A DNA stretch of 64,000 bases, taken from Rossellomorea sp. y25. GTDB lineage: Bacteria; Bacillota; Bacilli; Bacillales; Bacillaceae_B. The stretch covers positions 4,077,001-4,141,000 of the forward strand of contig NZ_CP145886.1 of the NCBI RefSeq assembly GCF_038049935.1, read 5' to 3'. The first letter of the stretch is position 1, and each line of letters begins with the position of its first letter. Shown in pieces: positions 8,603 through 33,800 of this stretch. The position numbers and the translations under genes were made by a program. Under the pieces are notes generated by a model. It had not been told where the DNA came from. It saw only the letters and a list, made by a program, of their open reading frames with translations, and ran no database searches.

Positions 8603-8608
8603 GGTGGG

Positions 8609-8704: not shown

Positions 8705-8960
8705 TAAAGAATATTGGACACGGAGGATCAATTATTAGCAAAGAGGATTAATAAATTTGATTCAGGATCAATAAACCCCGTCAAGGATTGATTATCCCCA
8801 TTCAGGATTGAAACCCCTTCAACAGGGATCAATTCCTTCGCGAGGGTATCCTTGATCAGGTATTTCACTCTTATTTCGGCCTTCAATCCCATCGAAAATC
8901 CCACTCCCGGCTAAAAAAAGACAATCTAAAGCCCTAAACCCATCCAAAACCCCTCCAAAC
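8705..8960 (-). repeat. Six-ATCC intergenic repeat, copy A
   Basis: Read on the minus strand, a conserved 5' block (CTTTAGATTGTC, T run, AGCCGGGAG; 8904-8932) is followed 83 bases later by six ATCC-centred motifs. They appear as GGAT on the plus strand, starting at 8826, 8805, 8785, 8765, 8745 and 8725. The spacings are therefore 21, 20, 20, 20 and 20. The end is the conserved GTGTCSAATWTTCTTT. There is no coding potential because the period is not a multiple of three. It lies between the treR and degU terminators. Confidence 0.85.
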
Positions 8961-8965
8961 AAACC

Positions 8966-9000
8966 AAAAAAACGGCCCTTCTCAAAGAAGGGCCGTTTTC
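8966..9000 (-). terminator. Terminator of the degS-degU unit
   Basis: A 14-bp perfect stem, 8969-8982 with 8986-8999 (core CGGCCCTTCT/AGAAGGGCCG) and a three-base loop. On the minus strand it is followed by T7. Confidence 0.92.
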
Positions 9001-9038
9001 TCAACAACAAATTAACAATACGCATGTCTCTCTAAACG

Positions 9039-9716
9039 TTATCGTACCTCTACCCAACCGTTCTTAATCGCAGTTACTACTGCCTGGGTACGGTCATTCA
9101 CGTTCATTTTTTGTAATATATTACTTACATGATTTTTAACAGTTTTTTCACTGATGTACAGTCCTTCACCAATACCGCGGTTGCTCTTACCGTCAGCCAG
9201 CATTTGCAGTACTTCACACTCGCGGCGCGTTAATAGGTGAAGCGGGCGGCGAACTTCGGATTGTTGGAATCCACCTGAGTTTTGGGCGTTTGCCAGGCGC
9301 TTGTATTCTGCTACCAGGTTATGGGTTACCTTCGGATGAACGTAGGAGCCGCCATCTGCGACGATCTTCACTGCATCAACCAGTGCTTCTGAGTCCATCT
9401 CTTTTAATAGATAACCGAGTGCTCCTGTTTTTAGCGCATGGTTTACATAGTTTTCGTCATCGTGAATGGATAGAATGATGACTTTAGTATCCGGGTATCT
9501 GTCCATTAGTTCACGAGTTGCTTCTACGCCGTTTGTTTCAGGCATATTGATATCCATCAGGACAACATCTGGTTCGTGTGCTTCTACTAGGTTCATGGCT
9601 TCTGAACCGTCATCGCCTTCTGCTACTACGTTGAAAGAAGGTTCGAATTCAAGGATTCGTTTTACTCCCTCTCTGAAAAGCTGATGATCATCAATGATAA
9701 CAATATTTGTTGCCAT
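9039..9716 (-). CDS. degU: Response regulator DegU
   Basis: This 225-residue regulator pairs with DegS to control exoenzymes, competence and motility. The receiver domain (about 4-120) has the acidic pair D9/D10, phospho-acceptor D55 in VVLMDINMP and the conserved Lys in LLKEMD. A LuxR-type helix-turn-helix (about 158-220) shows [36 protein letters not shown] split over the usual positions. It lies 30 bases after degS on the same strand and ends in a strong terminator. The many secreted proteases and hydrolases later in the window are the kind of genes DegU controls, but no DegU site was identified. Confidence 0.95.
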
Positions 9717-9746
9717 GTCTTTCGCCTCCCTAAACCTTGGAAAAAT

Positions 9747-10889
9747 TTACATATTAAGCGGGACTTGGATCAGGATCACCGTTCCTGTCCCTACTTTTGA
9801 GTCAATCGTGATGTCTCCTTCGAGAAGGTCGACACGTTCTTTCATCCCCATGATGCCAAAGGATCCAGTTTTCTGTTTATCTTTATCGAATCCTTTGCCG
9901 TTGTCTTTGACAACAACTGTTATTTGGTCTTTCTTTACTTCTACTTTAACTTGGACATGTGACGCTTCAGCGTGCTTAAGTGCGTTTTGAACACTTTCTT
10001 GTACTAATCGGAACAGAGCGACTTCGAATTTTGAAGGAAGTCTGATATCAAGCCCCATATTCACAAACTGAATGGAGGTCTTCTGGTTATACTCTTCGAT
10101 AGTACTCAAGTATTTTTTGAGGGTCGGAATCAACCCCAGGTCATCAAGTGCCATTGGTCTGAGGTCGTAAATGATGCGTCGGACCTCGTATAGGGCTGAG
10201 CGGACCATCCGTTTGAGGTCGCGGATTTCCTTGATGGCATCGTCTGTCCCTTTTTCACGGTAGACACGTTCGATCAAATCGGAACGCATCAAGACGTTGG
10301 CCATCATTTGTGCAGGTCCGTCGTGAATTTCACGGGATAAGCGTTTCCGCTCGTCCTCTTGTGCCTCGATGATTTGAAGGCCGAAATCCTGACGCTGCTT
10401 CGCGTCCTCCAGTGCCTCATTCACTTGCCTTAAGTCACTATTCAAATAATTGAGAACGACGGATATTTGCGAGCAAAGATTTTCTGCCCGTTCGATCGTG
10501 TCCCCGAGTGTGTGTAATCGCCTTTCGAGTTCATCGCGGCGATCTCTCAGCTGCTTTTCATGCTGTCTATTCATTGATAGTTTCATTTGCAGGTCATGAG
10601 CTTTCTCGTACGCTTCTCTAACCTGGTCTTCTGAATAGGTTTGAAAATGTTTGCTTACTTCGGAAAGTCTAAGCCGTGCAAACTTGGATTTCTGTTGGAG
10701 GTCATCTCCTTGATCAATCACCTTCAAGACCATTTCTTTTACATCCAGTAATTCTTTCATCAAATCTTCATAATCAGTTCGACATTGCTCGCCAATCTGG
10801 AAGATTTCATCCTTACTTTCGTCAACCGTATCGACCATCTTTTTCAGGATGCTATCTAACATCTTGGTGTTTATTTTTTTAAGTGACAC
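9747..10889 (-). CDS. degS: Sensor histidine kinase/phosphatase DegS
   Basis: A 380-residue cytoplasmic kinase without membrane segments, as expected for DegS. The N-terminal sensor part (about 1-175) is largely coiled coil. The HisKA_3 dimerisation region has the phospho-acceptor His189 in SREIHDGPAQMM. The ATPase domain follows with NALKHA and DNGKGF. The start is GTG 10889 with GAGGGGTG upstream. It is cotranscribed with degU. The divergent neighbour is the YvyE-family gene, an arrangement also found in B. subtilis. Confidence 0.95.
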   Translation of the reverse strand: MSLKKINTKMLDSILKKMVDTVDESKDEIFQIGEQCRTDYEDLMKELLDVKEMVLKVIDQGDDLQQKSKFARLRLSEVSKHFQTYSEDQVREAYEKAHDLQMKLSMNRQHEKQLRDRRDELERRLHTLGDTIERAENLCSQISVVLNYLNSDLRQVNEALEDAKQRQDFGLQIIEAQEDERKRLSREIHDGPAQMMANVLMRSDLIERVYREKGTDDAIKEIRDLKRMVRSALYEVRRIIYDLRPMALDDLGLIPTLKKYLSTIEEYNQKTSIQFVNMGLDIRLPSKFEVALFRLVQESVQNALKHAEASHVQVKVEVKKDQITVVVKDNGKGFDKDKQKTGSFGIMGMKERVDLLEGDITIDSKVGTGTVILIQVPLNM

Positions 10890-11428
10890 GGTACACCCCT
10901 CTTTTGTTCCACAATAGTAGTCAACCTAGCATAAAGCTTTATGAAAAACTATTCTTGCATAATAATAATTGATTTTTCAGCTTGCGTTCGTTATGTCCAT
11001 AGACCTACCACTCCGCTTTAAAATCGTACCTCTTATCATTTCAATGCAAAATCACAAAACTCCTTTATTCATCTAGGCATATTCCTATGTAATACCTCTA
11101 CCAAGGGATCATTCGCTCAAGGTTCGAAGAGAATGAATGGGAATTATCTAGACCATTCGACTTCCCTTTAAAGAGCTTTGGAACAACTGAAGTATTACTA
11201 TCAGCGTCCATTATACCATGTCATATATTGTCGGAGATTAAAGTTTGATTACATTGTATTACCATTATTTCATGTAGAACCAGTTTTTTCCGTAGGTAAT
11301 TGGAAATTGATATTTATTTATGTGCAATCCGTTCTACTTTTATATATAGTAGATATAGGATGCAAATAGAGATTAAACGCGTATTTCGCCATTATTCATA
11401 CATATGGAATTGGAAAGGAGAAACCGTA
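10890..11428. other. Divergent intergenic region of degS and the YvyE-family gene
   Basis: 539 bases, AT-rich, presumed to hold promoters for both directions. An ORF of 63 codons at 11178-11369 lacks a ribosome site and is not accepted. The in-frame upstream extension of the YvyE-family gene to 11300 is also not supported. I see no hairpin, repeat or recognisable operator. Confidence 0.4.
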
Positions 11429-12073
11429 TTGCTACATCACTATAATACCGTCAAGGGTTACGGAGAGCATGAAATTAATATAGAACGTTCCAGGTTCATC
11501 ACCTACGTCAATCGGGTGGAATCAGAAGAAGAAGCACAGGAATTCATCGCAGCCATTAAGAAAAAGCACTCGGATGCAAATCATAACTGTTCCGCCTATA
11601 TGATCGGTGAAAATAATCTGATCCAGAAAGCAAATGACGATGGTGAACCCAGTGGTACTGCGGGTGTACCTATGCTCGAGGTATTAAAAAAGAGGGATCT
11701 TAAAGACACCGTTGTCGTGGTCACCCGTTATTTCGGTGGGATCAAGCTTGGCGCCGGCGGACTGATCCGTGCATATGGACGTGCGACGTCAGAAGGCTTG
11801 AATGCTGCCGGTATTGTGGAAAGAAAGCTGATGCGCATCATGAAGTCTACGATTGATTATACATGGCTTGGAAAAGTGGAAAACGAAGTGAGGTCCTCCC
11901 ATTATCAACTGAAAGACATTCATTACCTGGAAGCCGTCGAGGTCGAGGTCTATGTCGAGGAAGCCAAAAAGTCCGCGTTCAACGAGTGGATGACGGAGCT
12001 CACAAATGGACAGGCTGACATAAGAGAAGGCGATGTGGAATACCTTGAAACACCTGTTGAAACCAACCCGTAA
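11429..12073 (+). CDS. yvyE: YigZ/YvyE family protein (IMPACT-like)
   Basis: A 214-residue protein of the UPF0029/Impact family. The N-terminal domain shows RSRFITYVNRVESEEEAQEFI, KKHSDANHNCSAY, DDGEPSGTAGVPML and VVVTRYFGGIKLGAGGLIRAYG, all classic family blocks. The C-terminal ferredoxin-like YigZ domain covers about 140-205. TTG 11429 is chosen because AAAGGAG (11414-11420) lies eight bases upstream; this gives the usual family length. The molecular role is not settled in bacteria. Its position next to degS and before tagO matches B. subtilis. Confidence 0.9.
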   Translation: MLHHYNTVKGYGEHEINIERSRFITYVNRVESEEEAQEFIAAIKKKHSDANHNCSAYMIGENNLIQKANDDGEPSGTAGVPMLEVLKKRDLKDTVVVVTRYFGGIKLGAGGLIRAYGRATSEGLNAAGIVERKLMRIMKSTIDYTWLGKVENEVRSSHYQLKDIHYLEAVEVEVYVEEAKKSAFNEWMTELTNGQADIREGDVEYLETPVETNP

Positions 12074-12274
12074 AAATCTTTACATTGGAAAAATCTTTTT
12101 TCTTACAAAGCCATCATTAAACTCATACTAATTGTATAGAAGTAACACGGAAAAATGACTCTTTAGACGGATAGAGAAATAACCTTTTTTCGCCTACAAT
12201 GGTGAAATTAATTGGACATCCTAACGTTTAGATTCATCTGGTTAATGGGTAGTAATAAATTAACTTGTTACTTT

Positions 12275-12301
12275 TGAAACTTTTCACTAAAATTCGACGT
12301 C
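12275..12301 (+). promoter_or_regulatory. ECF-sigma type promoter upstream of tagO
   Basis: TGAAAC (12275-12280), 17 bases, then CGTC (12298-12301). This is the consensus shared by SigM, SigX and SigW of Bacillus, which respond to cell-envelope stress. It lies 143 bases before the tagO start. The 370-base gap 12074-12443 otherwise shows only AT-rich sequence and a possible TTGACA (12326-12331) with a weak -10. Confidence 0.65.
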
Positions 12302-12443
12302 TAATGAAGAAAGCCTCTGCTTTTTTTGACAAAATAGCCACTACGCATTTTAGTAATTGTTCCCTTAAAAAAAATGTTGCACATCATTAAATATGTGGTA
12401 TTCTTACAATTGGAGTGCCCATTGAAGAAAAAGAGGTGAACGA

Positions 12444-13505
12444 ATGTACTCTCTAATCGATTTTGTAATTGCTTTTGCTATTTCTTTAGTTGTTTCTGTA
12501 GCAGTGACTCCATTCGTAATCAAATTCGCCAAGCGATTTGGCTTTGTCGATAAACCAGACCATCGAAAGGTCCACAAAGGACTAATGCCTCGTGTGGGCG
12601 GCTTGTCGATCGTCATAGGTGCATCAGCTGGCTTGCTGTATTTGAATGATCTGATCGCTCCACTTTGGCCGGTCATTCTCGGGGGTGGAATCATCCTGAT
12701 CGTAGGGATCCTTGATGATCGCTTTACCCTGTCACCAAAAGCTAAGCTTGTTGGACAAATCCTGGCAGCTTGTATCGTCGTGTTTGCCGACTTTAAAATT
12801 GACTTCATTACTTTGCCTTTCGTGGCAGAGCGTATATATTTAGGGAATTTCAGTTATGTGTTCGGTATTCTGTGGATCGTAGGGATCACCAATGCCATTA
12901 ACCTGATCGATGGACTGGATGGACTTGCAGGGGGAGTATCCGTCATTGCCATGACTTCCATTATGGCTCTTGCAGCCATGAATGGTCAGTATATGGTGGT
13001 TGCCCTTACCGTTATCCTGATCGGAGGGACAATCGGATTCCTGTTCTTCAACTTTAATCCTGCGAAGATCTTTATGGGTGATACGGGAGCATTGTTCCTT
13101 GGCTATTGTATTTCCATCATCTCGCTCCTTGGATTGTTTAAGAGTGTCACGATCTTCAGTTTAGTTGTTCCAATTATCATCCTGGCTATACCGATTTTTG
13201 ATACGTTCTTTGCGATTATCAGACGTATCCTGAATAAGCAAAAGATTTCAGCACCTGATAAGTCCCATTTACACCATCGCTTACTGGCAATGGGCTTCTC
13301 TCATAAAGAGACGGTCCTGATTATTTATGCGATTGGAGCATTTTTCGGACTATGCGCGATCCTATTCACTCGATCAACCCTTTGGGGAGCTATTCTCTTC
13401 TCCGCTGTCCTGGTGATTATCATTCAGTTGACGGCAGAAGTGGTTGGATTGATCGGTCAGCATAAGCCTTTGATCAATACGATGAAGAAATTACGCGAAA
13501 GATAA
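12444..13505 (+). CDS. tagO: Undecaprenyl-phosphate N-acetylglucosaminyl 1-phosphate transferase
   Basis: This 353-residue polytopic enzyme moves GlcNAc-1-phosphate from UDP-GlcNAc to undecaprenyl phosphate, the first step of wall teichoic acid and related glycopolymers. It has about eleven membrane segments and the polyprenyl-phosphate transferase motifs: ILDDRF, NLIDGLDGLAGGV, FMGDTGALFLG and the cytoplasmic HLHHRL loop. AGAGGTGA lies just upstream of ATG 12444. Besides teichoic acid it could start the glycopolymer made by the glycosyltransferase, flippase and polymerase genes further along. The ECF promoter suggests induction by wall stress. Confidence 0.93.
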   Translation: MYSLIDFVIAFAISLVVSVAVTPFVIKFAKRFGFVDKPDHRKVHKGLMPRVGGLSIVIGASAGLLYLNDLIAPLWPVILGGGIILIVGILDDRFTLSPKAKLVGQILAACIVVFADFKIDFITLPFVAERIYLGNFSYVFGILWIVGITNAINLIDGLDGLAGGVSVIAMTSIMALAAMNGQYMVVALTVILIGGTIGFLFFNFNPAKIFMGDTGALFLGYCISIISLLGLFKSVTIFSLVVPIIILAIPIFDTFFAIIRRILNKQKISAPDKSHLHHRLLAMGFSHKETVLIIYAIGAFFGLCAILFTRSTLWGAILFSAVLVIIIQLTAEVVGLIGQHKPLINTMKKLRER

Positions 13506-13546
13506 GCACACGCTCACGTTTATGCGTGGAAAATACTAGATTAGTA

Positions 13547-13581
13547 GAAAACCTTGGATGATTATCCAAGGTTTTCTTTTT
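13547..13581 (+). terminator. Terminator of tagO
   Basis: A 13-bp perfect stem, 13547-13559 with 13564-13576 (GAAAACCTTGGAT and its complement), loop GATT, then T5. Confidence 0.92.
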
Positions 13582-13623
13582 GTCTGATTGAGATCGATTA
13601 TGGCTCCAAATTGGCTGATTACA

Positions 13624-13857
13624 AGGATTTTCTTTAGATTGTCCTTTTTTAGCTGGGAATGTAGTTTAAAGCCAGCCTAAAGGCCGATTCTGGTGACGGA
13701 TCTGTAGGTTGAGATGGGCTTCGCGGGAGAATTGATCCGGTTTGGGATATAATTGATCCTGATATCCGATAATTGATCCTTATTGGGCTGTATTAATCCT
13801 GAATCTGATTAATTGATCCTCACTTCATTTTATTGATCCATCGTGTCGAATTTTCTT
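13624..13857 (+). repeat. Six-ATCC intergenic repeat, copy B
   Basis: The 5' block TTTCTTTAGATTGTCC, T6, AGCTGGGAATG (from 13629) is followed by GCCGATTC and CTTCGCGGGA. Six ATCC motifs start at 13735, 13756, 13776, 13796, 13816 and 13836. The end is GTGTCGAATTTTCTT. AGCTGGGAATG begins 84 bases before the first ATCC, as in copies E and F. Confidence 0.9.
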
Positions 13858-13926
13858 GATAAGCGTACGATACATCGAGGACCGTCCCCCTTATTGATTG
13901 ACCAAAGACAAGGAGTTGACTCTATT

Positions 13927-14394
13927 TTGCCCACCATTCGTCAAATCACGCATATAAACGCTCCTGTTTCTGTTTGTTTCGACTTAGCCCGCAATGTGGA
14001 TATTCATACTCAAACGACCTCTAAAACGAAAGAGAGGGCCATAGGAGGCGTCACAAGCGGTTTATTGGAGATTGGAGATACCGTGACATGGGAAGCCGTT
14101 CATTTTGGCGTTAAACAGCGACTGACGGCTCAAATTGTCGAAATGGACGCCCCCCATTCGTTCACGGACGTTATGGTGAAGGGTGCTTTTACATCCTTTA
14201 CTCATATCCATGAATTTAGCCAACAGGATAATGGCACACTAATGAAGGATACTTTCTCATATGAAGCTCCATTGGGCATAATCGGGACGCTTGCAGACAA
14301 ACTCTTTTTAAAAAGGTACATGCACACGTTCATCAAGATGAGAGCAAACGAATTGAAGAAGATCGCTGAACAAACAAACACTCCTACCTCATGA
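13927..14394 (+). CDS. SRPBCC (START-like) family protein
   Basis: 155 residues with the layout of small polyketide-cyclase/START-like proteins: an N-terminal strand and helix (IRQITHINAPVSVCFDLARN), a central beta sheet (GDTVTWEAVHFGVKQRLTAQIVEMDAPHSF) and a long C-terminal helix (RYMHTFIKMRANELKKIAEQ). This fold binds hydrophobic ligands; the ligand is unknown. The frame is open back to 13843, but that start lies in the end of repeat copy B. TTG 13927, with AAGGAG 11 bases upstream, gives the normal domain boundary. Confidence 0.75.
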   Translation: MPTIRQITHINAPVSVCFDLARNVDIHTQTTSKTKERAIGGVTSGLLEIGDTVTWEAVHFGVKQRLTAQIVEMDAPHSFTDVMVKGAFTSFTHIHEFSQQDNGTLMKDTFSYEAPLGIIGTLADKLFLKRYMHTFIKMRANELKKIAEQTNTPTS

Positions 14395-14404
14395 GATAGG
14401 AGTG
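14379..14404 (-). terminator. Hairpin between convergent SRPBCC and LtaS-like genes
   Basis: CACTCCTA (14379-14386) pairs with TAGGAGTG (14397-14404). On the minus strand it is followed by TTTGTTTG, so it mainly serves the LtaS-like gene. The SRPBCC stop codon lies in its loop. Confidence 0.65.
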
Positions 14405-14410
14405 CGAGCG

Positions 14411-16222: not shown

Positions 16223-16352
16223 AATCTTAATACCTCGTTTACATAATTGTAATAAAATTTTAACACTTTTCCTTTTACTTATAAAGTCAGGGTTTGACAT
16301 TTTATTGTAGAAATCGACTTTATTAGGGATGGACACGACAAATAAAGTCGCG

Positions 16353-16387
16353 AAAAAACCCGATTTGAGAGGCTCAAACCGGGTTTC
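16353..16387 (-). terminator. Terminator of the gtaB-ugd-glycosyltransferase operon
   Basis: AAACCCG/CGGGTTT (16356-16362, 16380-16386) continues into TTTGAG/CTCAAA with a three-base loop. On the minus strand it is followed by T6. Confidence 0.88.
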
Positions 16388-16394
16388 GTTTCCA

Positions 16395-17531: not shown

Positions 17532-17569
17532 ATCATGACTTCCTCTCATCTATCCTTATTACCAATTGA

Positions 17570-17596
17570 AGGTGGACCCTGATGAAGGATCCACCT
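17570..17596 (-). terminator. Intra-operon hairpin between ugd and the glycosyltransferase
   Basis: AGGTGGA (17570-17576) pairs with TCCACCT (17590-17596) plus two inner pairs. The minus strand then reads only TTCAATTGG, so it is a partial terminator or mRNA stabiliser and not a full stop. Confidence 0.4.
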
Positions 17597-17602
17597 ATCA
17601 TG

Positions 17603-18907: not shown

Positions 18908-18923
18908 CTTAATTTCTCCTTGT

Positions 18924-20914: not shown

Positions 20915-20939
20915 TGTTTGATCGTTATGATTCGAGTTG

Positions 20940-20976
20940 CGGCAGGTGCCCGGTTGTGGGCGCCTGCCGTTTTTTT
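20940..20976 (+). terminator. Terminator of the GT2 gene
   Basis: A 12-bp stem, 20940-20951 with 20958-20969 (CGGCAGGTGCCC and complement, one wobble), then T7. Confidence 0.93.
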
Positions 20977-21049: not shown

Positions 21050-21288
21050 ATGGGGATTTCTTTTAGATTGTCCATATTTGGGTGGGAATGTGCTGTTTGG
21101 GTAGGTTGCAGGCCGATTTGAGGATGTAATCTGTGGAGTTGGGTTACCTTCGCAGGATAATTCGGTCCTGTTTTGGAGGAAATTGATCCTGATCATCGAT
21201 CATTAATCCTCGATTGGCTTTTTCAATCCTGAAATTGATTTATTGATCCTCATTTCAATGAATTGATCCTCCGTGTCGAATTTTCTTT
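21050..21288 (+). repeat. Six-ATCC intergenic repeat, copy C
   Basis: The 5' block TTTAGATTGTCC...GGTGGGAATG is followed by GCCGATTTG and CTTCGCAGGA. The motifs start at 21165 (GTCC), 21186, 21206, 21226, 21246 and 21266. The end CCGTGTCGAATTTTCTTTA matches copies B and E. The first motif is degenerate, but the spacing (21, 20, 20, 20, 20) is intact. Confidence 0.9.
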
Positions 21289-21357
21289 ATCCCGCAGGTA
21301 CCAACCGTACCGTCTCCATCTACAGATATCGTTTGCACATCATGTGCCCAATGCAGA

Positions 21358-21393
21358 ATAAAAAAGGTGCACCCATCTCCAATGGGTGCACCT
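21358..21393 (-). terminator. Terminator of the Wzy-like three-gene unit
   Basis: AGGTGCACCCAT (21365-21376) pairs with ATGGGTGCACCT (21382-21393). On the minus strand it is followed by TTTTTTATT. Confidence 0.9.
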
Positions 21394-21400
21394 CAAGTAA

Positions 21401-24159: not shown

Positions 24160-24438
24160 TACAAACTCCTTTCCTATGAGGACCATCGTCTCTTTCGAAT
24201 TCCTTGTTTCCTATGTAAAAAGGGACGCACCCTGTTAAGTCTTGATAATCAAACAACAATAAAAAATTATACATGAAAACCAACCATTTGAAAATGCTTT
24301 GTTCCCTGCCCCTATACGCTTTGTCACCCCTGTCAATACTGAAAAATGACGCAGATTCTCTATGATTCCGTTATGTTAAATATGTGTTACAAACATGTTT
24401 TATAGTCATAATTTTGGAAGATTGATCTATATGAGGGA

Positions 24439-24483
24439 AAGTTACGCTTTTTCAGCTACTCGTTAACTGCCTGTTGGCGGGGG
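24439..24483 (-). repeat. Shared tail module of the repeat family (minus-strand copy)
   Basis: The minus strand reads CCCCCGCCAACAGGCAG (24483-24467), a short gap, and then a 22-base block at 24460-24439 that begins AGTAGCTGAAAAAGCG. Both blocks recur without mismatch, in the same order, at 33460-33476 and 33483-33504 on the plus strand. In both places they lie downstream of a six-ATCC element. The gap 24187-24762 otherwise holds only repeat copy D and a terminator. Confidence 0.8.
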
Positions 24484-24520
24484 TGGGAGCTTGTATTGGA
24501 TGGGCAAATTGAGTGTGCAT

Positions 24521-24668
24521 TTAAAGAAAATTCGACCCGAGGATTAATTATCCCGCGAAGACCGCTTCAAGTCATCGATTCACCACTCGAATCGGCTTTC
24601 AATCCAGTCTAAAACCACCCTCCCAGCTATAAAGAGACTATCTGATGCCAAAAACCTTCCAGAAGTGA
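24521..24668 (-). repeat. Six-ATCC intergenic repeat, deletion derivative (copy D)
   Basis: On the minus strand, GGAAGG, CAGATAGTCTC, AGCTGGGAGGG, GCCGATTCGAGTGGTGAATCG and CTTCGCGGGATAATTAATCC lead straight into TCGGGTCGAATTTTCTTTAAA. Only one ATCC motif (GGAT at 24541) remains, so about 100 bp, five 20-bp units, are missing. Confidence 0.8.
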
Positions 24669-24717
24669 AAAAATAAGATCAATCCATCGTCACAACCCGA
24701 AGATCGGAAGTTTGTCC

Positions 24718-24748
24718 ATAAAAAAACTGCCATCCCTAAGAATGGCAG
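24718..24748 (-). terminator. Terminator of the amidase-lipoprotein-LytB operon
   Basis: CTGCCAT (24727-24733) pairs with ATGGCAG (24742-24748). On the minus strand it is followed by T7. Confidence 0.88.
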
Positions 24749-24762
24749 CTTCATGATTCATA

Positions 24763-27024
24763 TTAATTTGCTAAAGCCTGTTGGATATCTTGACGAACAG
24801 ATGCTGAAATGGCCCCTTTACCGCCTAAGAAGTACGTATCGGCCAGGACCGTACGCTCATCCAGCCATGTTGCCACATTATCCGGTAAGGCATCCTTACG
24901 CGTCAGGATTAATGGGGATTTCATCGCTGCTGCCAATGAAGACGCAGGCAGGGCATCGATGAAAATGTCTCCCCGTGCGAAGAATAATGTCTTTTCTTCA
25001 AACTCACTGCTGTATTTCTCTGCAATCGTCAGACTTGTTTGGTAACGGTCATCCCCGTATACCCTTGACACGTCTGAAGCAAGATTCATTAATTGGCGTT
25101 CTACTCCTGAAGAAACAGCAGACTGACCACCAATGATCGTTACTTTATTAATACTATTCTCTTTCATGTATGCTTCAACGCTCTCATGAAGGGAATCCTT
25201 TGTCGTATACAGAATCGGGATTTGCATCATGCTCGCATATGAAGCAATCGACAGGGCATCTGGGGATTTCTCGTCTTTTGTCACAACAAAGATTTCATCA
25301 TTGTTGTTGATTTCGTCTGCCACCTTCACTGCCGTCTCGTAACGCTCTTTTCCGCTGATGCGGGTAACATCAGATAAGCCTTTCAGCTGACTCTCTACAT
25401 TGCCGCTGATGGCATTCGTACCACCAAGTAAGTAGACTTTTTCAGGCTGAAGTCGCTTGATTTCAGCCAGTACTGTTTCTGGGAGTGAATTGGATGTGGT
25501 TAATAATAACGGTGAATCCATTTTCTTCGCCAGTACACTTCCTGTTAACGCATCGATCGATAAATCGCCGCGGCCGATGACTACTGCCTTCGATTTATTT
25601 TCCCAGCCATACTCTGATACACTGACGCTTGTTTCATAGCGGTCGATCCCTTCAAGCTCATGAGAATAGTCGTTTAAGTCCAATTCTCTATTCACGCTTG
25701 TTGTTGGATAGTAGTAGCCAAGGATCGTTCTGAAGTTGTTTCCGTCTTTCGACATCTGGTAAGCACCGTATTGGCTCATCCCGATTCCGTGGCCGAAACC
25801 GCCGCCGTTGATTGTAAATCGCTCATCCGTCTCGCCAAGACTCTTCACATAAGGACTCTTCATGATTGATGTCCCCAGCATAAAGCGAATGTTATAAGAG
25901 CGATCGTTAATCGTTTTGGTTTGCAGTTTGATGGTTTCGTCTTCATTTTTCACAAATCCACTATCTTTTTTCTCAAAATAAGTGAACGATACGGTTCCTT
26001 TCAACACATCTGTTGAAGTGAAAGATGAATCCGGGATATCAAAAGAGACATCCTTTATATCGACGATTTTAATTTCACTTTTATCATCAATATGGTTTTT
26101 ATTTTTCAACCATGATTTCATGTTCGAAATGACCGTTTGATCTTGTTCCTTCACGTCCGACCACCAGAATTCCGGTTTCTTTAGATCCAGCTTGCTATCA
26201 TCGAATTGAGATTTGGAGAGTGGGACTGCCCAATTTCCGTGTGGTGAGATTTTCGCATCATAGATGTCCGGCTTCGTCTCCAAGTAAGGAACTAATGGGG
26301 ATCCCCAAACATTTTGATTCGAGAATACTCTTCCCCCATTTGATGAAGAATAAAATGCTTCCGCATAGCTGTCGCCTTTTTTCAGAACTTCACCTTGAGT
26401 TTCATTGACCGCTTGCGTAGTATGAGGGTTCCAATCGTACCCTTTATAGACTTGATCACTTTGGCCATCATAAATCGTCCAGTTCCCTTTTTTCAATACA
26501 AAGGTTCTGGCTGCGACAGCTTGAGCCTTCAAAGCATCCAGTCCGCCGTTATCGCCCCAGGAAGCAGGCATTTCAGCAGGGACCACGCCTTTTAAGTAGT
26601 CTTCGAGATTGATATTGTTCACAGGTCTCACATATTTACTGGATTCAACGGTAAACTCGACTTCTCCTAAATATTGCTTGTCAACATTTCCTTTGATTGT
26701 CATGGAACGATCCATCGCTTCTGTAATCGTCGGGATGATCGTAGCGTTCCCATCGAACTTCTTCACGAGTGTGGAACCTTTATATAGAGATAGTTTCCCT
26801 GATTCCACCTTCATGGTGTAGGATGCACCCGGCTGGATGAAGATCGACGTTCCCTTCACTTGGTAATCACCGTTTGTCGTAAAAGGAAGTGAACTCTTAC
26901 TTCCGATATAATTTTGAAGTTTTACAGAAATAGGCTCACCCGCTGCACTTGTATCAATCGGTGCTGCCATCATTCCCGTAACCATTGTGGAAAGAACCAG
27001 CATAGATAGTAACTTCTTCTTCAA
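24763..27024 (-). CDS. SpoIID/LytB-like secreted protein with three CWB2 repeats
   Basis: 753 residues. Signal peptide 1-29 ends DTSAA-GEP. A SpoIID/LytB domain follows (LEDYLKGVVPAEMPASW, ALKAQAVAARTFVL, about 140-190, and GFGHGIGMSQYGAY near 425). SpoIID is a lytic transglycosylase that acts on stripped glycans, and LytB is the B. subtilis modifier of amidase LytC. Three CWB2 repeats (about 455-753; GIDRYETSVSVS, SGKERYETAVKVA, YGDDRYQTSLTIA) should hold it to the wall. TTG 27024 with AAGGAGG is chosen over the codon at 27066. It is the last gene of the operon behind the amidase. Confidence 0.9.
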   Translation of the reverse strand: MKKKLLSMLVLSTMVTGMMAAPIDTSAAGEPISVKLQNYIGSKSSLPFTTNGDYQVKGTSIFIQPGASYTMKVESGKLSLYKGSTLVKKFDGNATIIPTITEAMDRSMTIKGNVDKQYLGEVEFTVESSKYVRPVNNINLEDYLKGVVPAEMPASWGDNGGLDALKAQAVAARTFVLKKGNWTIYDGQSDQVYKGYDWNPHTTQAVNETQGEVLKKGDSYAEAFYSSSNGGRVFSNQNVWGSPLVPYLETKPDIYDAKISPHGNWAVPLSKSQFDDSKLDLKKPEFWWSDVKEQDQTVISNMKSWLKNKNHIDDKSEIKIVDIKDVSFDIPDSSFTSTDVLKGTVSFTYFEKKDSGFVKNEDETIKLQTKTINDRSYNIRFMLGTSIMKSPYVKSLGETDERFTINGGGFGHGIGMSQYGAYQMSKDGNNFRTILGYYYPTTSVNRELDLNDYSHELEGIDRYETSVSVSEYGWENKSKAVVIGRGDLSIDALTGSVLAKKMDSPLLLTTSNSLPETVLAEIKRLQPEKVYLLGGTNAISGNVESQLKGLSDVTRISGKERYETAVKVADEINNNDEIFVVTKDEKSPDALSIASYASMMQIPILYTTKDSLHESVEAYMKENSINKVTIIGGQSAVSSGVERQLMNLASDVSRVYGDDRYQTSLTIAEKYSSEFEEKTLFFARGDIFIDALPASSLAAAMKSPLILTRKDALPDNVATWLDERTVLADTYFLGGKGAISASVRQDIQQALAN

Positions 27025-27086
27025 TGTTTTTCCTCCTTGCAGTATGTATTGATGAAGGCGTTCCAAAACGGAACACCTTCAGGATT

Positions 27087-27896: not shown

Positions 27897-27908
27897 GGGT
27901 TGTCCTCC

Positions 27909-29969
27909 TTAATACAAGACATTCTTCATTTTTGCAATGATGGCGTCATCAACTTTCCCGCCAACTTTAATGACTTCTTTTACGCCACCGGCAGGCTGAT
28001 ACTCGAGAATGAAATCTTCTAAGTGACCATCTAATGTGCCGCCTACCAATACGATTGGCGCCTTTGTTTTAACAGATAGGGCTGATGCGGTTAAAGCATC
28101 CGGGTAATTCGTTCCCGTGGAAACGATGAATTTGTCCGAGCCCATCACTGATTTAAATTCTGTCAGTACTTTTGCAAGTGTTTTATAACGGTCCGCTCCG
28201 GAGAGTCTTTCCACATTGGTTGAATAGCGTTTGATCGATTGTTCAACCGTTGATGAAATGGCACTTCCCCCACCGAGGACCTTCACTTGCTTTCCTTTTA
28301 CATACGATAGAGCGCTAGAATTGATGCTATCTTTACCTGTCAGCACAATCGCCCATTGATTGGCTGAAGCAATCGGTGCTGCTCCAAGGGCGTCGGCGTA
28401 ATTTTTGCCTGATGCCACGAACACGCCTTTTACATTCGTCAGCTTTTTATTAATAAGAAGATTCGTAGCATAGCGGTCAGCTCCACCGACTCTAGTAACG
28501 GTCAGTCCAAGCTTCGCCAATCGATCTTGAACCGCAGTTGAAACGGCTCCTTTACCACCGATCACGTATACTTCTTTCGCGTTCAATCTCGCAAGCTCAT
28601 TTTCTACTTCTGAAGGAAGCTGGTCCTTACTGGTTAATAGAATAGGAGCGTTATCCAGTTGAGCTGCCAGAGGCCCGACTGAAAGTGCGTCTGCGAAGTC
28701 ATATGCCGTTGCGAGTACGACGGCTTTTTTCGCTTTGGAGCTTGAGAAACCGCTAGGATAAAGGTCTTTAGAAACCTTGATCGCCGTTTCCATTCGATCG
28801 AGGCCGATCAGGTTTGTATCGTTAATGTAACGATTGATCTTAACTCCATCGATACTCGACCAAATGACTCCTTTGGAATCAATATCAACCACTTTTAATG
28901 GTGTTGCCTTCCATTTAGCGTAATCGATTGCACTCTTGACATCGTAATACGACCATAAACTTTTTCCTGCTTCTGTTTGAACACTGTATTTTTTGGGTAA
29001 ATAATTAGACCAAAGGATTTTTTCAGTGTGTTCATCCACTACTCTGGTATTCGTCAGAGTTCCTGCATATTGGATCGCGTCTTCCTTGATCGGGTATGTT
29101 TTAAGCTTGTCATTCCCTTTTTGATAGACACTGTATTCATTCAGATTCTCGTACACTTTTTTCTGCTGGTATTTATCGAATACATATGTATTGGATTGAG
29201 ACTTGGAATATTGAATGGCTTCCTCTTTCGTCTTATAGACTTTAAGTCTCTTATTCTCTGCGTTATACACTTCAAACACTTTGAAATAGGAAACGATTCC
29301 GTTCTTGATACCCTCTGCGGCATTATTTTGGAATGTCCATGTTTTGATCAGGGCTTCTTCTGTCGGATTCGACATATACCCCATCTCCAATAAGAGTGAT
29401 GGCATTTGCGTGTTACGGATCACATAAAACGCCTGATCATTTCTCATACCTTTGTCTGTCAGGCCGATGGCATTCACCGTACTCGGGTGAATCGTTTCTG
29501 CTAATCTCTTGGATTCACTTCCATACGCTACCTGAATGGGATCCGGCGGATATTCCGCTTCCCAGGCATATTTATTATCATAGTGATACGATTCGAATCC
29601 TCGTACATACGGGTTTGTAGGTGCCGCATTGTGATGGACCGAGACAAATACTGTTTGATCATTCTTTCCTTTGGCAAATGCATTCGCTAGATCTGTACGT
29701 TCTTGAAGACTCAAATACTTTGTACCATCATTATGAGTCATATACACGTTGAATCCCGCTGCTTTTAGCTTATCCCGTAATTTTTCAGAGATTGCCAGAT
29801 TGGCATGCTTTTCATAAAAACCAGTTGAACTCCCAGAATATCCTGTTGTACCTGAATCCCAACCTCCGTGACCTGGGTCAATGACTACATTCTTCTCAGC
29901 CGATGCCAGAATCGGTATGACTAGAAACATAGCCATTGTCACAACAAGCATCGCAATCTTTTTCTTCAT
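27909..29969 (-). CDS. N-acetylmuramoyl-L-alanine amidase with three CWB2 repeats (LytC-like)
   Basis: 686 residues. Signal peptide 1-24 (ILASA-EKN). An Amidase_3 domain (about 26-212) has zinc ligands His34 (DPGHGG), Glu53 and His112 (SVHHNA) and the catalytic Glu in LLLEMGYMSN. Three repeats of about 50 residues follow (230-380; LKVYKTKEEAIQYSKS, LKTYPIKEDAIQYAGT, LWSYYDVKSAIDYAKW), similar to SPOR-like modules. Three CWB2 repeats fill about 385-686. It cuts the amide bond between muramic acid and the stem peptide. B. subtilis LytC has the same enzyme and CWB2 modules with CWB2 at the N terminus; here it is C-terminal. First gene of the operon, behind a SigD-type promoter. Confidence 0.93.
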   Translation of the reverse strand: MKKKIAMLVVTMAMFLVIPILASAEKNVVIDPGHGGWDSGTTGYSGSSTGFYEKHANLAISEKLRDKLKAAGFNVYMTHNDGTKYLSLQERTDLANAFAKGKNDQTVFVSVHHNAAPTNPYVRGFESYHYDNKYAWEAEYPPDPIQVAYGSESKRLAETIHPSTVNAIGLTDKGMRNDQAFYVIRNTQMPSLLLEMGYMSNPTEEALIKTWTFQNNAAEGIKNGIVSYFKVFEVYNAENKRLKVYKTKEEAIQYSKSQSNTYVFDKYQQKKVYENLNEYSVYQKGNDKLKTYPIKEDAIQYAGTLTNTRVVDEHTEKILWSNYLPKKYSVQTEAGKSLWSYYDVKSAIDYAKWKATPLKVVDIDSKGVIWSSIDGVKINRYINDTNLIGLDRMETAIKVSKDLYPSGFSSSKAKKAVVLATAYDFADALSVGPLAAQLDNAPILLTSKDQLPSEVENELARLNAKEVYVIGGKGAVSTAVQDRLAKLGLTVTRVGGADRYATNLLINKKLTNVKGVFVASGKNYADALGAAPIASANQWAIVLTGKDSINSSALSYVKGKQVKVLGGGSAISSTVEQSIKRYSTNVERLSGADRYKTLAKVLTEFKSVMGSDKFIVSTGTNYPDALTASALSVKTKAPIVLVGGTLDGHLEDFILEYQPAGGVKEVIKVGGKVDDAIIAKMKNVLY

Positions 29970-30020
29970 TATTCTGCATTCTCCTCCATTATATTAAAAT
30001 TTTCCTTTATTCTACCATTA

Positions 30021-30047
30021 ATATCGACAACAGTTGACATACTTTTG
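30021..30047 (-). promoter_or_regulatory. SigD-type promoter of the amidase operon
   Basis: The minus strand reads CAAA (30047-30044), 15 bases, then GTCGATAT (30028-30021). The SigD consensus is TAAA-N15-GCCGATAT, so each element has one mismatch. In B. subtilis the lytABC amidase operon also depends on SigD. The start codon at 29969 is about 45 bases below the expected transcription start. Confidence 0.65.
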
Positions 30048-30075
30048 ACATGTTTTCGTAAACTTTTACATAATT

Positions 30076-30124
30076 ATAAAAAAAGACACTCCATTCTCCT
30101 TTAACAGGATCTTTGAGTGTCTTT
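30076..30124 (-). terminator. Terminator of the GT4 glycosyltransferase gene
   Basis: AAAGACACTC (30082-30091) pairs with GAGTGTCTTT (30115-30124). On the minus strand it is followed by T7. Confidence 0.82.
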
Positions 30125-30171
30125 GATATTTATAGGTTTGGAAAAACGCAGCTTCTTGAAAATAGCGACGT

Positions 30172-31269
30172 TTATCTCTCACCTTTTACTATTTTATTAT
30201 AAAGATCAATCATTCTCTTAGAATTCTCTTCCCAATCGTAATGATTGATGACGTGGTCCCTGCCGTTTCTCCCCAACTTCTCTCGTTCTAAGGAATCCTT
30301 ATAGAGATATAGTAGTTTGTCGGCCAGTGCTGCCGGATCTTTAGATGGGATCAGATAGCCTGTTTCCCCGTCCAGCACGACTTCCGGCAGACCGCCGACA
30401 TTGGTTGCCACAACCGGTACACCACAAGCCTGGGCCTCTACAGCTGAAACCCCGAAGCTTTCAATCAAGGAAGAAATGACAAATATATGAAGAGACGAGA
30501 TAAAATCAGGAACATCCTCATGAGCGATTCTTCCTAAAAAATCTACATTCTCATTAATGCCCAGGTCTTCTGTCAGTTTCATATATTTCGTCATATAAGG
30601 TCCGTCCCCTGCCAGTTGCAGGCGAACGTACTGGCGCTCAGGTCCCAGGGTATCCAGAAATAGTTTAAATCCCTTCAGGAGATACTCTATCCCATACTTC
30701 GGCTCCATCCCTTTAGCAATCCCGATTCTGAATTGACCTTCGACCTTTTCCGTCAGGTTCGGTTTGAATTGTGTCGTATCCACACCGAATGGGGTGATGG
30801 CCAATGGCTTATTTTCATCTATATATTTTTTTGTTTCCTGTTCCAGTGCAGGACTGGTCGAACAAATATAATCTGCCCTCTTTAATGCGTATTGGAGGAT
30901 GATCCGATTCATCACATTCCGCTTAGGGAAGTCGTAGATATCCGATCCCCATACCGATAGAATATAAGGACTGAATCCTGTCAGCGCCCCGATCAGCCCG
31001 TAGCTCGAAGCATAATGGGAATGGATCAGATCAGGTTTATAGTTTCGAATGATTTTCTTCAATCTGGAAACCGTAAATAAATAAGAAATCTTGTGATTCA
31101 ATTTCAGATTTAAATAGACTCTGCTTACATTCTCCCAAGGGATGTGTTCAGTAGAGTCTTTGTGGTTCTCTAAGCTAATATTCATGACCTCGATACCAAT
31201 CGAATTATAGTAATCAAGCCATTTCTTCGTATGTACATTATTCGCTGGTGCTAATAATAAAACTTTCAT
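30172..31269 (-). CDS. Glycosyltransferase family 4
   Basis: 365 residues with the GT-B fold. The N-terminal acceptor domain begins MKVLLLAPANNVHTKKWLDYY and includes DLIHSHYASSYG. The C-terminal donor domain has FRIGIAKGMEPKYGIEYLLKGF, LAGDGPYM, VDFLGRI and the EX7E motif in SLIESFGVSAVEAQ, then GGLPEVVLDGETGYL. It transfers a nucleotide-activated sugar with retention; donor and acceptor are unknown. It is divergent from the flippase gene across a 229-base promoter region. A role in the same lipid-linked glycan pathway as the flippase is likely but inferred. Confidence 0.9.
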   Translation of the reverse strand: MKVLLLAPANNVHTKKWLDYYNSIGIEVMNISLENHKDSTEHIPWENVSRVYLNLKLNHKISYLFTVSRLKKIIRNYKPDLIHSHYASSYGLIGALTGFSPYILSVWGSDIYDFPKRNVMNRIILQYALKRADYICSTSPALEQETKKYIDENKPLAITPFGVDTTQFKPNLTEKVEGQFRIGIAKGMEPKYGIEYLLKGFKLFLDTLGPERQYVRLQLAGDGPYMTKYMKLTEDLGINENVDFLGRIAHEDVPDFISSLHIFVISSLIESFGVSAVEAQACGVPVVATNVGGLPEVVLDGETGYLIPSKDPAALADKLLYLYKDSLEREKLGRNGRDHVINHYDWEENSKRMIDLYNKIVKGER

Positions 31270-31357
31270 AACTCGGGTACCACACTCTCTTTTTTACTAC
31301 TGACTTGCTGCTATGCCGGTTAACATACTTGTTATGAACAGCCTGACAAAAGAAATA

Positions 31358-31385
31358 TATTCAACAATATCGTTTGTGATATAAT
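31358..31385 (+). promoter_or_regulatory. Extended -10 promoter of the flippase gene
   Basis: TG (31377-31378), one base, then perfect TATAAT (31380-31385), with a weak TATTCA (31358-31363) 16 bases upstream of the -10. Confidence 0.6.
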
Positions 31386-31498
31386 ATACTAATTGATTTG
31401 ATACTTCTTATCATAATATAAAAAGCGGTTAAATTGAATTTATTTGTAAAAACTATATAAATTTTGTTAATAAAATGGATCAACAGAGAGGTATTTTC

Positions 31499-32932
31499 AT
31501 GTTTAAACATACGTTCATTTATTTTCTATCAAAAGGTGTCCCGGGGATCATCAATTTTGTTGCGATCGCCTTATATACACGCCTTTTATCGCCAAGTGAA
31601 TACGGTGAATACGCCCTGGTCATTGCGGCGGTCACCTTTGTGAATACAACCTTATTCCACTGGCTCCGACTGGGACTGCTTCGCTACAATCCTAAATACG
31701 AAGGCAACCAGAAAGCCATGTTCATCAGCTCCATCACGGCAACCTTTATATCCATGACGATCTTGACGGTCTTCCTGGGTACCGGAGCTTTCATTGTCTA
31801 TACTCCTTTCCATTCGATGGCTCTCTTATGGTTCCTGGGTATTGGATTACTCACCATGCAAAGTATGTTCGACCTGTTCACTGAATACTTACGTTCTGAG
31901 CTTTCGTCTAAACTTTTTGGTGTAGTGACAGCCTTAAAAGTGGTATTGTCCCTTATCGTAGCTGTTGTCCTGATTAAATTCTTCGGATTCGGTGCAGAAG
32001 GAATCATCCTTGGGTTGATCATCGGAATCTTCTTATCCATCGTCTTCTTTATTCCGAAGTATCTGCATTTGATCAATATGAAGTTGATCGATCGTGACAT
32101 GATAAAAGAAGTCGTGAAGTATTCCATTCCGTTCATTGCGGCCCTTTCAATGGAAGCCATCATCCTGAATACGGACCGTTACTTGATTGGCTGGTTAATG
32201 GACAAGGCATCTGTCGGGATCTATGCCGTTTCATACGACCTGGCCAAACAAATCCTGTTTCTCCTGATGATGATCATCAATCTGGCCGCTTATCCATTAG
32301 TGGTCAAAGCACTTGAAACAGGCGGGATCAAAGAATGCCAGAAACAATTGAATGAAAACACGTCCCTGCTATTACTTGTATCGGTACCGGCGACAACGGG
32401 AATGATCTTGTTAAGCGACTCCTTTACTGGGATCTTCCTGGGGGAATCCTATCAAGGGAAGGCAGCGACGATCTTTTCACTGATTGCCCTCGCGATCTTT
32501 ATCCAAGGCTTTAAAATGTATTATTTCGATCTGGCCTTCCAGCTCGGGAAAAATACGAAGCTTCAGATCTGGCCTGTGCTGGTCGCTGCTATACTGAATG
32601 TGATCCTGAACTTACTCCTAATCCCGGAGTACGGAATATTCGGATCGGCTTACGCAACCATCATTTCCTATGTCGTATCGGTTCTGATGAGTGCCTTAAT
32701 CGGCAAGAAGATTTTCCCGCTCACCTTCCCGTTCAAAGAAGTCGGAAAGATCTTTATCGCGACCGGTGTCATGGCGCTTCTTGTATGGCCGGCCCTTGCC
32801 ATTGACGGCATCTTCGGATTTATTGTACAAATTGCAGTCGGAATTATTGCTTATGGGTCTGTAGTATTGGCTCTGAATATTAATGGAATACGTCAGCTTG
32901 TGATGCGACGATTGAAGAAATCTCCTCAGTGA
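31499..32932 (+). CDS. Wzx-like lipid-linked oligosaccharide flippase
   Basis: 477 residues with about fourteen membrane segments, opening FIYFLSKGVPGIINFVAIALYTRLLSPSEYGEYALV. This is the hallmark start of the polysaccharide biosynthesis protein family in the MOP superfamily. Such proteins turn undecaprenyl-linked glycan units to the outer face for Wzy-type polymerisation. ATG 31499 follows GAGAGGT; the earlier in-frame ATG at 31475 has no ribosome site. A Wzy-like polymerase lies at 22375-23748 and an LCP ligase at 33894, so flipping, polymerisation and attachment genes occur within 13 kb. Confidence 0.9.
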   Translation: MFKHTFIYFLSKGVPGIINFVAIALYTRLLSPSEYGEYALVIAAVTFVNTTLFHWLRLGLLRYNPKYEGNQKAMFISSITATFISMTILTVFLGTGAFIVYTPFHSMALLWFLGIGLLTMQSMFDLFTEYLRSELSSKLFGVVTALKVVLSLIVAVVLIKFFGFGAEGIILGLIIGIFLSIVFFIPKYLHLINMKLIDRDMIKEVVKYSIPFIAALSMEAIILNTDRYLIGWLMDKASVGIYAVSYDLAKQILFLLMMIINLAAYPLVVKALETGGIKECQKQLNENTSLLLLVSVPATTGMILLSDSFTGIFLGESYQGKAATIFSLIALAIFIQGFKMYYFDLAFQLGKNTKLQIWPVLVAAILNVILNLLLIPEYGIFGSAYATIISYVVSVLMSALIGKKIFPLTFPFKEVGKIFIATGVMALLVWPALAIDGIFGFIVQIAVGIIAYGSVVLALNINGIRQLVMRRLKKSPQ

Positions 32933-32948
32933 TTGGGGGGATTTTTTT
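32918..32948 (+). terminator. Terminator of the flippase gene
   Basis: AAATCTCCTC (32918-32927) pairs with 32935-32944 with two wobbles, followed by T7. It overlaps the stop codon of the gene. Confidence 0.7.
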
Positions 32949-33000
32949 ATTTTTGGGTTTGGTGTTTGGTATTGGGGAGGTGGATTGGGTGGTTTGTTTT

Positions 33001-33092
33001 TGTACCTGGTCCAATTGGGGGTTGTTTGTACCTGGTACATTTCGGGGTTGTTGTACTTGGTACACTTCGGGGCTGTTGTACCTGGTACACGG
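33001..33092. repeat. Tandem TGTACCTGGTACA repeat, four units
   Basis: Units start at 33001, 33027, 33052 and 33077 (periods 26, 25, 25; the last is partial). Each has TGTACCTGGTAC or a near copy, itself a palindrome around TACCWGGTA, then TTCGGGGYTGT. The spacers do not vary as CRISPR spacers would. It fills the start of the 961-base gap after the flippase gene. Confidence 0.85.
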
Positions 33093-33118
33093 ATATCAAA
33101 GCAATTTAAAGCTAGAGA

Positions 33119-33134
33119 CCCCGCCAACAGGCAG
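33119..33134 (+). repeat. Isolated CCCCGCCAACAGGCAG module
   Basis: An exact 16-base copy of the module found at 33460-33476 and 24467-24483. Here the AGTAGCTGAAAAAGCG part does not follow, so it is a partial copy. Confidence 0.7.
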
Positions 33135-33186
33135 ACCATCTATAGAATAGCGACCGTTTTTGCAGTTTTCATTCACTCCTGGAATG

Positions 33187-33422
33187 TTTTTGGCTTAAGA
33201 TTGTCCTTTTTTAGCTGGGAATGTGCCATTTGATTGGCATGCTGGCCGATCCAGGGGTTGAATATAGGATGAGGAGTGGTCGTCGCGGGGGAATCGATCC
33301 TGATAGGGAGGGGATTGATCCCGATTCATGATAATTGAACCGGTTTTGGTTTTTTCAATCCTCGATATGATTATTCGATCCGCATTTCCATTAATTGATC
33401 CTCCGTGTCGAATTTTCTTTAA
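33187..33422 (+). repeat. Six-ATCC intergenic repeat, copy E
   Basis: The 5' block TTAAGATTGTCC, T6, AGCTGGGAATG (from 33213) precedes the first ATCC by 84 bases. Motifs start at 33297, 33318, 33338 (AACC), 33358, 33378 and 33398. The end is CCGTGTCGAATTTTCTTTAAA. From GCTGGCCGATCC (33241) to about 33404 it is identical to copy F. Confidence 0.9.
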
Positions 33423-33459
33423 ATTGGTACACTTTATACCCATCCGGCTCAAGCTCACT

Positions 33460-33504
33460 CCCCCGCCAACAGGCAGACAAACAGTAGCTGAAAAAGCGTA
33501 ACTT
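33460..33504 (+). repeat. Shared tail module of the repeat family (plus-strand copy)
   Basis: CCCCCGCCAACAGGCAG (33460-33476), then the 22-base block 33483-33504 beginning AGTAGCTGAAAAAGCG, in the same order as the minus-strand copy at 24439-24483. It lies between repeat copies E and F. Confidence 0.8.
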
Positions 33505-33566
33505 CCGCACTTCAGATTCTTCTTTCAATCGGTGAACGTTTGATAATATTTCTTCACTTTTGGAAG

Positions 33567-33800
33567 GGTTTCTCTTTAAGATTATCCTTTTTCAGCTGAG
33601 AATGTGCCATTTAAGTGGCTAGCTGGCCGATCCAGGGGTTGAATATAGGATGAGGAGTGGTCGTCGCGGGGGAATCGATCCTGATAGGGAGGGGATTGAT
33701 CCCGATTCATGATAATTGAACCGGTTTTGGTTTTTTCAATCCTCGATATGATTATTCGATCCGCATTTCCATTAATTGATCCTCCTTGTCGAATTTCCCT
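33567..33800 (+). repeat. Six-ATCC intergenic repeat, copy F
   Basis: The 5' block CTTTAAGATTATCC, T5, CAGCTGAGAATG is followed by motifs at 33678, 33699, 33719 (AACC), 33739, 33759 and 33779. The end CTTGTCGAATTTCCCTTA is slightly diverged. About 160 bases are identical to copy E, while the flanks differ. Confidence 0.9.

Follow-up and report, generated by a model that had tools for sequence, protein, structure and literature searches.

What keeps a row of short motifs at almost invariant 20-bp steps between the genes of a bacterial chromosome? The question is raised by a 64,000-nt stretch of Rossellomorea sp. y25 (contig NZ_CP145886.1, positions 4,077,001 to 4,141,000 of the forward strand; hereafter the window), in which a first-pass annotation had noticed an intergenic repeat carrying six ATCC-centred motifs. 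We found that the geometry of these arrays persists where the motif word differs between relatives, and that within one word type, in most copies compared, the core letters change far less between species than the spacers beside them. The explanation that we favour, with confidence about evenly balanced, is that they are putative docking arrays, acting at the DNA level, for a chromosomal DNA-binding protein, the words switching with the binder.

All five copies of the first-pass annotation are present where it placed them, with motif starts 21-20-20-20-20 bp apart. It had missed a sixth window copy, D, which has a head and a tail around one motif. The copies, and the extension that follows one of them, are:

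8705-8930, minus strand: copy A; head block from 8930, six-motif array at 8725-8832, tail TGTCCAATATTCTTTA at 8705-8720
13633-13859, plus strand: copy B; head block, six-motif array at 13732-13839, tail at 13844-13859
21062-21289, plus strand: copy C; head block, six-motif array at 21162-21269, tail at 21274-21289
24522-24646, minus strand: copy D; head, single motif at 24541-24547, tail at 24522-24537
33195-33421, plus strand: copy E1; head, six-motif array at 33294-33401, tail at 33406-33421
33404-33504, plus strand: 3' extension of E1; 101 nt, 80% complementary to 24439-24539 (copy D)
33576-33802, plus strand: copy E2, a tandem duplicate of E1; array at 33675-33782, tail at 33787-33802

In the five six-motif copies the head consists of TTTAGATTGTC or a variant, a T run, and AGCTGGGAATG or a variant. 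This block had been said to begin 83-85 bp before the motifs; instead, TTTAGATTGTC lies at 98-100 bp and AGCTGGG (or a variant) at 80-82 bp. The words (n = 6 in each copy) are of the ATYRATCC type, here called alpha, the first motif of copy C being altered to GTCC. The tail resembles TGTCGAATTTTCTTTA, and its TGTCGAA box starts 11 bp past the start of the last seven-letter word. The limits first given to the element were too short, since copies D and E1 have in common a 3' extension of about 85 bp (24439-24539 and 33404-33504). E1 and E2 are 93% identical over 250 nt and, as a tandem duplicate, do not count as independent copies. Directly 5' of E1, a separate 25-bp tandem unit, GTTGTTGTACCTGGTACACTTCGGG, is present in 3.8 copies (32996-33090).

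The period was also recovered by a motif-blind scan, which asked for an 8-mer that recurs, with at most two mismatches, at no fewer than five of the six 20-bp steps that follow (with ±1 allowed at each). Eight positions in the window passed, all of them in copies A, B, E1 and E2, with copy C under the threshold. None passed in any of 20 first-order Markov shuffles or at any of 14 other periods (13-27).

Six units make up most intact arrays and are therefore the mode, not the rule of exactly six that had been proposed: arrays of 1, 2, 5, 7, 8 and 19 motifs also occur (two in loci L016 and L041), and locus L012 has one step of 18 bp. At the site of copy D, the window genome has 1 unit and its relative G035 has 19, largely a repeated 40-bp dimer, indicating that number changes by whole units. 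Variable motif number and spacing had been named in advance as observations that would count against a conserved geometry. The first was found, in whole 20-bp units, while the step itself hardly changes. The chain finder that supplied the step counts admits only steps near 20 bp, so that these counts hold partly by construction; the phase is seen independently of it in the alignment and in a fixed 20-bp print.

The genome-wide copy count that the first-pass annotation had called for was carried out on the 4.63-Mb genome (G000). A blastn search gave 17 matches, and an alpha profile, a sequence-only model that covers array plus tail and derives from 14 copies, gave 26 matches representing about 25 loci, copy D not among them. 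Across 61 genomes, the profile matched 25 of the 36 from Rossellomorea and 0 of the 25 others. The exact pattern of last word plus tail, searched over 84,980 species genomes, returned 33 stretches, of which 32 belong to Rossellomorea or Bacillus sp. and one, probably a chance match, to Sphingobacterium.

Relatives within Rossellomorea keep the six-unit spacing and the TGTCGAA end box with a different word (ATCRTGCG, called beta; TATGAKCC, called epsilon; and others), which bears out the claim that spacing is kept over sequence: 21-20-20-20-20 persists in the beta and TATGAKCC arrays. The contrast can be seen at single sites. At the sites of copies A, B and C, genome G025 keeps the tail and the six-unit phase, with the head seen at A and C, and has the beta word where G000 has alpha. 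A dialect survey covered 60 short loci, taken from a tail search except for nine G025 loci, which came from the profile; at least seven of the 60 (L228, L232, L253, L254, L258, L259 and L281) are chance tail matches that lack an array. In this survey the beta word was found in G003, G004, G013, G015, G025 and part of G032, alpha-like words in G007 and in L282 of G032, and other words, of the TACGTGCC and TTGCGCC types, in G001 and G020. Scanning 41 beta loci gave 34 tail-anchored arrays, all 34 with the last word 4 bp before the tail; 25 of the 34 have six units, and 17 of those 25 are spaced exactly 21-20-20-20-20. The epsilon word is that of G012, where a search model of five units without a tail gave 41 matches. 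Among 18 arrays taken from these, on 13 stretches (one trimmed by hand at its start and another at its end), 16 have six units, 15 open with the 21-bp step, and all 18 have TGTCGA within 30 nt 3' of the array. Dialects also coexist in one genome, alpha with epsilon in G010 and beta with epsilon in G004. Two single loci are recorded here as observations: L278 (G013) is a hybrid array with alpha and beta words in one row, and L066 (G012) and L031 (G000) occupy one intergenic site with arrays on opposite strands and different words.

Conservation in place was then measured between species at the same site. Over 22 alpha pairs from 16 arrays, restricted to arrays in which six words reach at least 5/7 and thus excluding unit-shortened and beta arrays, the core ATCC changed at 21 of 528 positions and the spacers at 476 of 1452. 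Elsewhere in the word, the first T changed at 0 of 132 positions and the YR pair at 74 of 264. Four non-overlapping alpha pairs gave the same picture (core 4/96 vs spacers 87/264; Fisher p 1e-9), as did six further same-site pairs (10/140 vs 80/380; the pair L046/L068 was left out of this sum, as it shares L068). As the spacers at a given site vary so much more than the core letters, passive decay is rejected for most of the copies compared. The spacers differ by 33% between orthologues and by 40% between sites, and this closer likeness of orthologues argues against recent homogenisation.

Taken together, the constant geometry, the changing words, the conservation in place and the lack of detectable RNA structure are most readily accounted for by a protein bound along a single face of the helix. 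In the mechanism that we propose, a putative sequence-specific protein would seat a single protomer, or a dimer, on every 8-bp word. As the words lie two helical turns apart, six subunits would be aligned along the same face of DNA over about 120 bp. An array beyond gene terminators would then act on the chromosome, by positioning, anchoring or condensing a domain, and not on one gene. If the specificity of the binder changed, the words would change genome-wide while the geometry stayed. From this pattern we infer the binder itself, its cooperativity, the absence of transcription, the chromosomal role and the link to Spo0A described below; the protein array suggested by the first-pass annotation has the same standing.

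TGTCGAA is the core of the Spo0A box (PMC3485338). It occurs in 12 of the 14 rows of the alpha alignment A1, and this cap, judged from sequence only, suggests a possible link to sporulation.

Placement along the chromosome was assessed with the origin located by parS and set at coordinate 0 in G000 and G032. Of the 81 loci in five complete Rossellomorea genomes, none lies farther out than 0.575 of the origin-to-terminus distance, and 58 point to the origin; these loci are not independent, as many are orthologous and weak matches are included. Taken alone, orientation toward the origin is significant only in G000 (20/24, p 0.002).

Arrays of similar form were found well beyond the genus. The breadth search took three TATGAKC words at 20-bp steps with at most two mismatches, and used the reversed pattern as control. 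Of 397 genomes in the order, 49 were positive, and these come from 23 of its 135 genera; a genome has up to 570 matches, and 10 of the 49 have a single one. The reversed control was positive in 5 of the 397, with 15 matches in one of those. Genomes with at least 10 matches are present in 9 of 47 families. In the remainder of the class, 6 of 140 genomes were positive, with one match each, and the reversed control was positive in two. G290 and G081 have arrays with more units and variable number, 7-28 over the 13 G290 arrays, of which several are near-perfect 20-bp tandem repeats. Statements on G290, G081 and G012 concern part of their 66, 121 and 41 matches; the set of 15 G081 arrays has one entry per array, with units under-counted in some where the chain breaks. 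The arrays across the order may be related by common descent or by common form only. Two local features accompany them. In G290, L321, L325, L326 and L330 have, immediately 5' of the array, an inverted repeat made up of the word of that array (GCTCGTTCAGCGG...CGCTGAACGAGC, for example). In family f11, the TATGAGC/TACGAGC arrays of L300-L302 end in TTCGACAAA or TCGACAAA, the reverse complement of a Spo0A-box-like cap.

A wider proposal would join these observations into a chromosomal address system across Bacillales: fixed-geometry arrays at tens of conserved sites, an 8-bp word that a fast-evolving binder switches jointly at all sites in one lineage after another, and, in Rossellomorea, a Spo0A-type cap with alpha and beta lineages origin-proximal, tying chromosome organisation to sporulation. 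We put it forward tentatively and regard it as rather doubtful in this full form. The binder, if there is one, is probably a chromosomal DNA-binding protein not yet described and present in many families of a single order. Same-site arrays with fixed spacing and different words look like a natural record of co-change in protein-DNA specificity, the dialects offering ready-made tests of how binding specificity shifts, and the TGTCGAA cap together with origin-proximal placement in Rossellomorea makes a link to replication or sporulation directly testable.

Several observations weigh against docking arrays or their chromosomal role. Two degraded copies, L036 and L034, lack word conservation (core 3/23 vs spacer 5/66, and 4/21 vs 11/51), so that the earlier rejection of passive decay stands for most copies compared and fails for these two. 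Alpha and beta spacers at one site are no closer than spacers between sites, which makes replacement of the element, rather than change of the word in place, possible. The presence of several dialects within one genome would require several binders. No array-binding protein was identified: no candidate was strong enough to take up, and no protein-homology or structure search was made. The Rossellomorea placement is not general either. The listed G290 loci (parS at 0.105 Mb) reach about 0.9 of the arm, and 13 of 13 point away from the origin, the reverse of Rossellomorea; several G012 loci lie near the terminus. TGTCGA was found within 30 nt 3' or 60 nt 5' in 0 of 13 G290 and 0 of 15 G081 arrays. 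On the G081 contig (parS at 0.34-0.48 Mb), six listed loci below 0.40 Mb are on the minus strand and 14 above 0.48 Mb on the plus strand, with one of each between. A rule of origin-proximal placement only thus holds in the five Rossellomorea genomes and fails in G290 and G012, and a rule of orientation always toward the origin is reversed in G290 and G081.

The main rival, which we consider somewhat unlikely, is a selfish, non-autonomous mobile repeat, the array being the recognition end for an enzyme encoded elsewhere and the dialects tracking different enzymes, as their coexistence in one genome would allow. A bounded duplication and tandem copies, which in relatives recur every 195-420 bp, indicate that the unit can spread. 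The duplication, one dispersal event, involves L025 (0.70 Mb) and L041 (0.88 Mb) on opposite strands of G000, which have in common a unit of about 324 bp that matches, around a deletion, at 91% across 211 bp and at 95% across 43 bp, the blastn match stopping on both sides. The words, however, stay conserved in place between species after insertion, and absence near the terminus in the five genomes is unexpected from gene dosage alone. By eye, the L025/L041 boundaries have no clear target-site duplication, and in four regions tested (three in the window and L025, of about 25 loci in the genome) the ends have no inverted repeat of at least 10 bp; the one inverted-repeat pair of L025 is internal, away from the ends. 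Several apparently empty sites still carry pieces of the head or tail, as would be left by deletion, and so gave no insertion boundary. Plasmid and phage records gave nothing for one alpha query, and in viral contigs three TATGAKC words (epsilon) occurred together in one stretch and the alpha tail pattern in none.

Gene context bears on a second rival, a roadblock or insulator at gene ends, in which an array-bound protein halts RNA polymerase or replication forks past the terminator. Window copies A-C and E do follow terminator-like sites: copy A is flanked by 8963-9005 (-) and 8606-8635 (+), copy C by 20939-20970 (+) and 21364-21394 (-), and E1 with E2 by 32913-32949 (+) and 33849-33882 (-), while copy B follows 13546-13577 (+), with the next facing site at 14378-14405 (-), 0.5 kb on. 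No terminator-like site is listed around copy D. Mechanical open reading frame (ORF) calls at the 25 G000 loci gave 8 convergent and only 2 divergent settings; both neighbours run against the element at 10 loci and with it at 5. At 18 of the 25 the next gene's 3' end faces the tail. Placement between convergent genes only, which the window had suggested, therefore fails genome-wide (8/25). In G290, all 13 arrays follow a co-directional gene, as a roadblock would predict, and the outward orientation of its 13 listed loci fits as well. Rossellomorea orientation is mostly the reverse of this, the ten loci between two genes both reading opposite to the element are hard to accommodate, and divergent contexts occur in G081 (4 of 24 chains, some arrays being counted twice because read out of phase). 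We judge this rival unlikely.

Decaying tandem repeats without function, kept by slippage, are very unlikely to account for the arrays: the near-perfect 20-bp units of several G290 arrays, the 1 versus 19 units at one site and the 40-bp dimers are what slippage would leave, but the word is conserved and the spacer free at most orthologous sites, and six units with a 21-bp first step are kept across dialects.

An RNA element read from either strand, a small RNA or a protein sponge in which single-strand repeats might hold a ring-like RNA-binding protein, is extremely improbable given the lack of conserved structure, the weak single folds, the promoter-like sites at background, the terminator-like sites around copies A-C and E and the lack of an Rfam match at gathering score. 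Consensus folding gave no fold for epsilon and five weak pairs for alpha; copies B and C, folded singly for each strand, had z-scores of -0.4 to -1.9, indicating no RNA structure. Promoter-like sites were at shuffle level in the scan that covered copies A-C (39 vs 36.3) and in that of the E copies (5 vs 5.2). Rfam gave 0 window matches at gathering score, and a permissive search gave only three unrelated sub-threshold matches at 45.6 kb; these fall on both strands of 45598-45678, suggesting a palindrome there.

The docking-array reading was finally set against described systems. We found no description of these arrays in the open-licence papers searched and no identity to a catalogued repeat in Rfam or those papers; the first-pass annotation, too, had not recognised the repeat as a described family. 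Among described repeats compared, the nearest in kind are the STAR elements of Staphylococcus, which are likewise interspersed intergenic direct repeats of no known function, with loci that expand and contract and with locus- and lineage-specific sequence (PMC3532100). They are 14-bp T(G/A/T)TGTTG(G/T)GGCCC(C/A) repeats, GC-rich and at least 40 bp apart (PMC3532100). STAR has this one 14-bp consensus, whereas the present arrays have 8-bp words at 20-bp steps, usually six units, a head and a tail, and dialects. The sites of Noc and SlmA are under-represented close to the terminus, and Noc-type sites have a palindromic 14-bp consensus (PMC4726725). The arrays resemble them as dispersed chromosomal sites and, in the five Rossellomorea genomes, by a terminus gap, one that the terminus-side arrays of G012 and G290 break, and differ from these single-consensus palindromes in being direct repeats of an asymmetric word.

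Other comparisons are with more familiar systems. Short dispersed non-coding repeats such as miniature inverted-repeat transposable elements, BOX and bcr repeats are alike in kind, but the present element has no terminal inverted repeats in the four regions tested and keeps its word in place. Plasmid iterons and partition centromeres are direct repeats about two helical turns apart, cooperatively bound, with words that vary between relatives. They occupy one plasmid locus beside their own gene, in contrast to tens of chromosomal loci here, no cognate gene being found among the ten genes that flank the window copies. The Sal-box/TTF-I terminators of mouse ribosomal DNA (rDNA) form oriented arrays past gene 3' ends, and their recognition co-evolves; they are confined to eukaryotic rDNA. 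CRISPR (clustered regularly interspaced short palindromic repeats) loci have repeats of about 23-47 bp with unique spacers, unlike these 8-bp words with alignable 12-bp spacers.

Ten genes flank the window copies, eight with Pfam domains and two without; the domains are GntR/UTRA, response regulator, glycosyltransferases, sulfatase, SpoIID/CWB2, polysaccharide export and LytR_cpsA_psr. One window protein (24763-27066) joins a SpoIID domain to three CW_binding_2 stretches, and the coding repeats D3, D5, D6 and D9, in 25-61 kb, may represent the same wall-binding domain in other genes. The adjacent ORFs at 49171-50670 and 50799-52199 look paralogous, with 70% identity over 300 nt and two more repeats (D4, D8 and D10).

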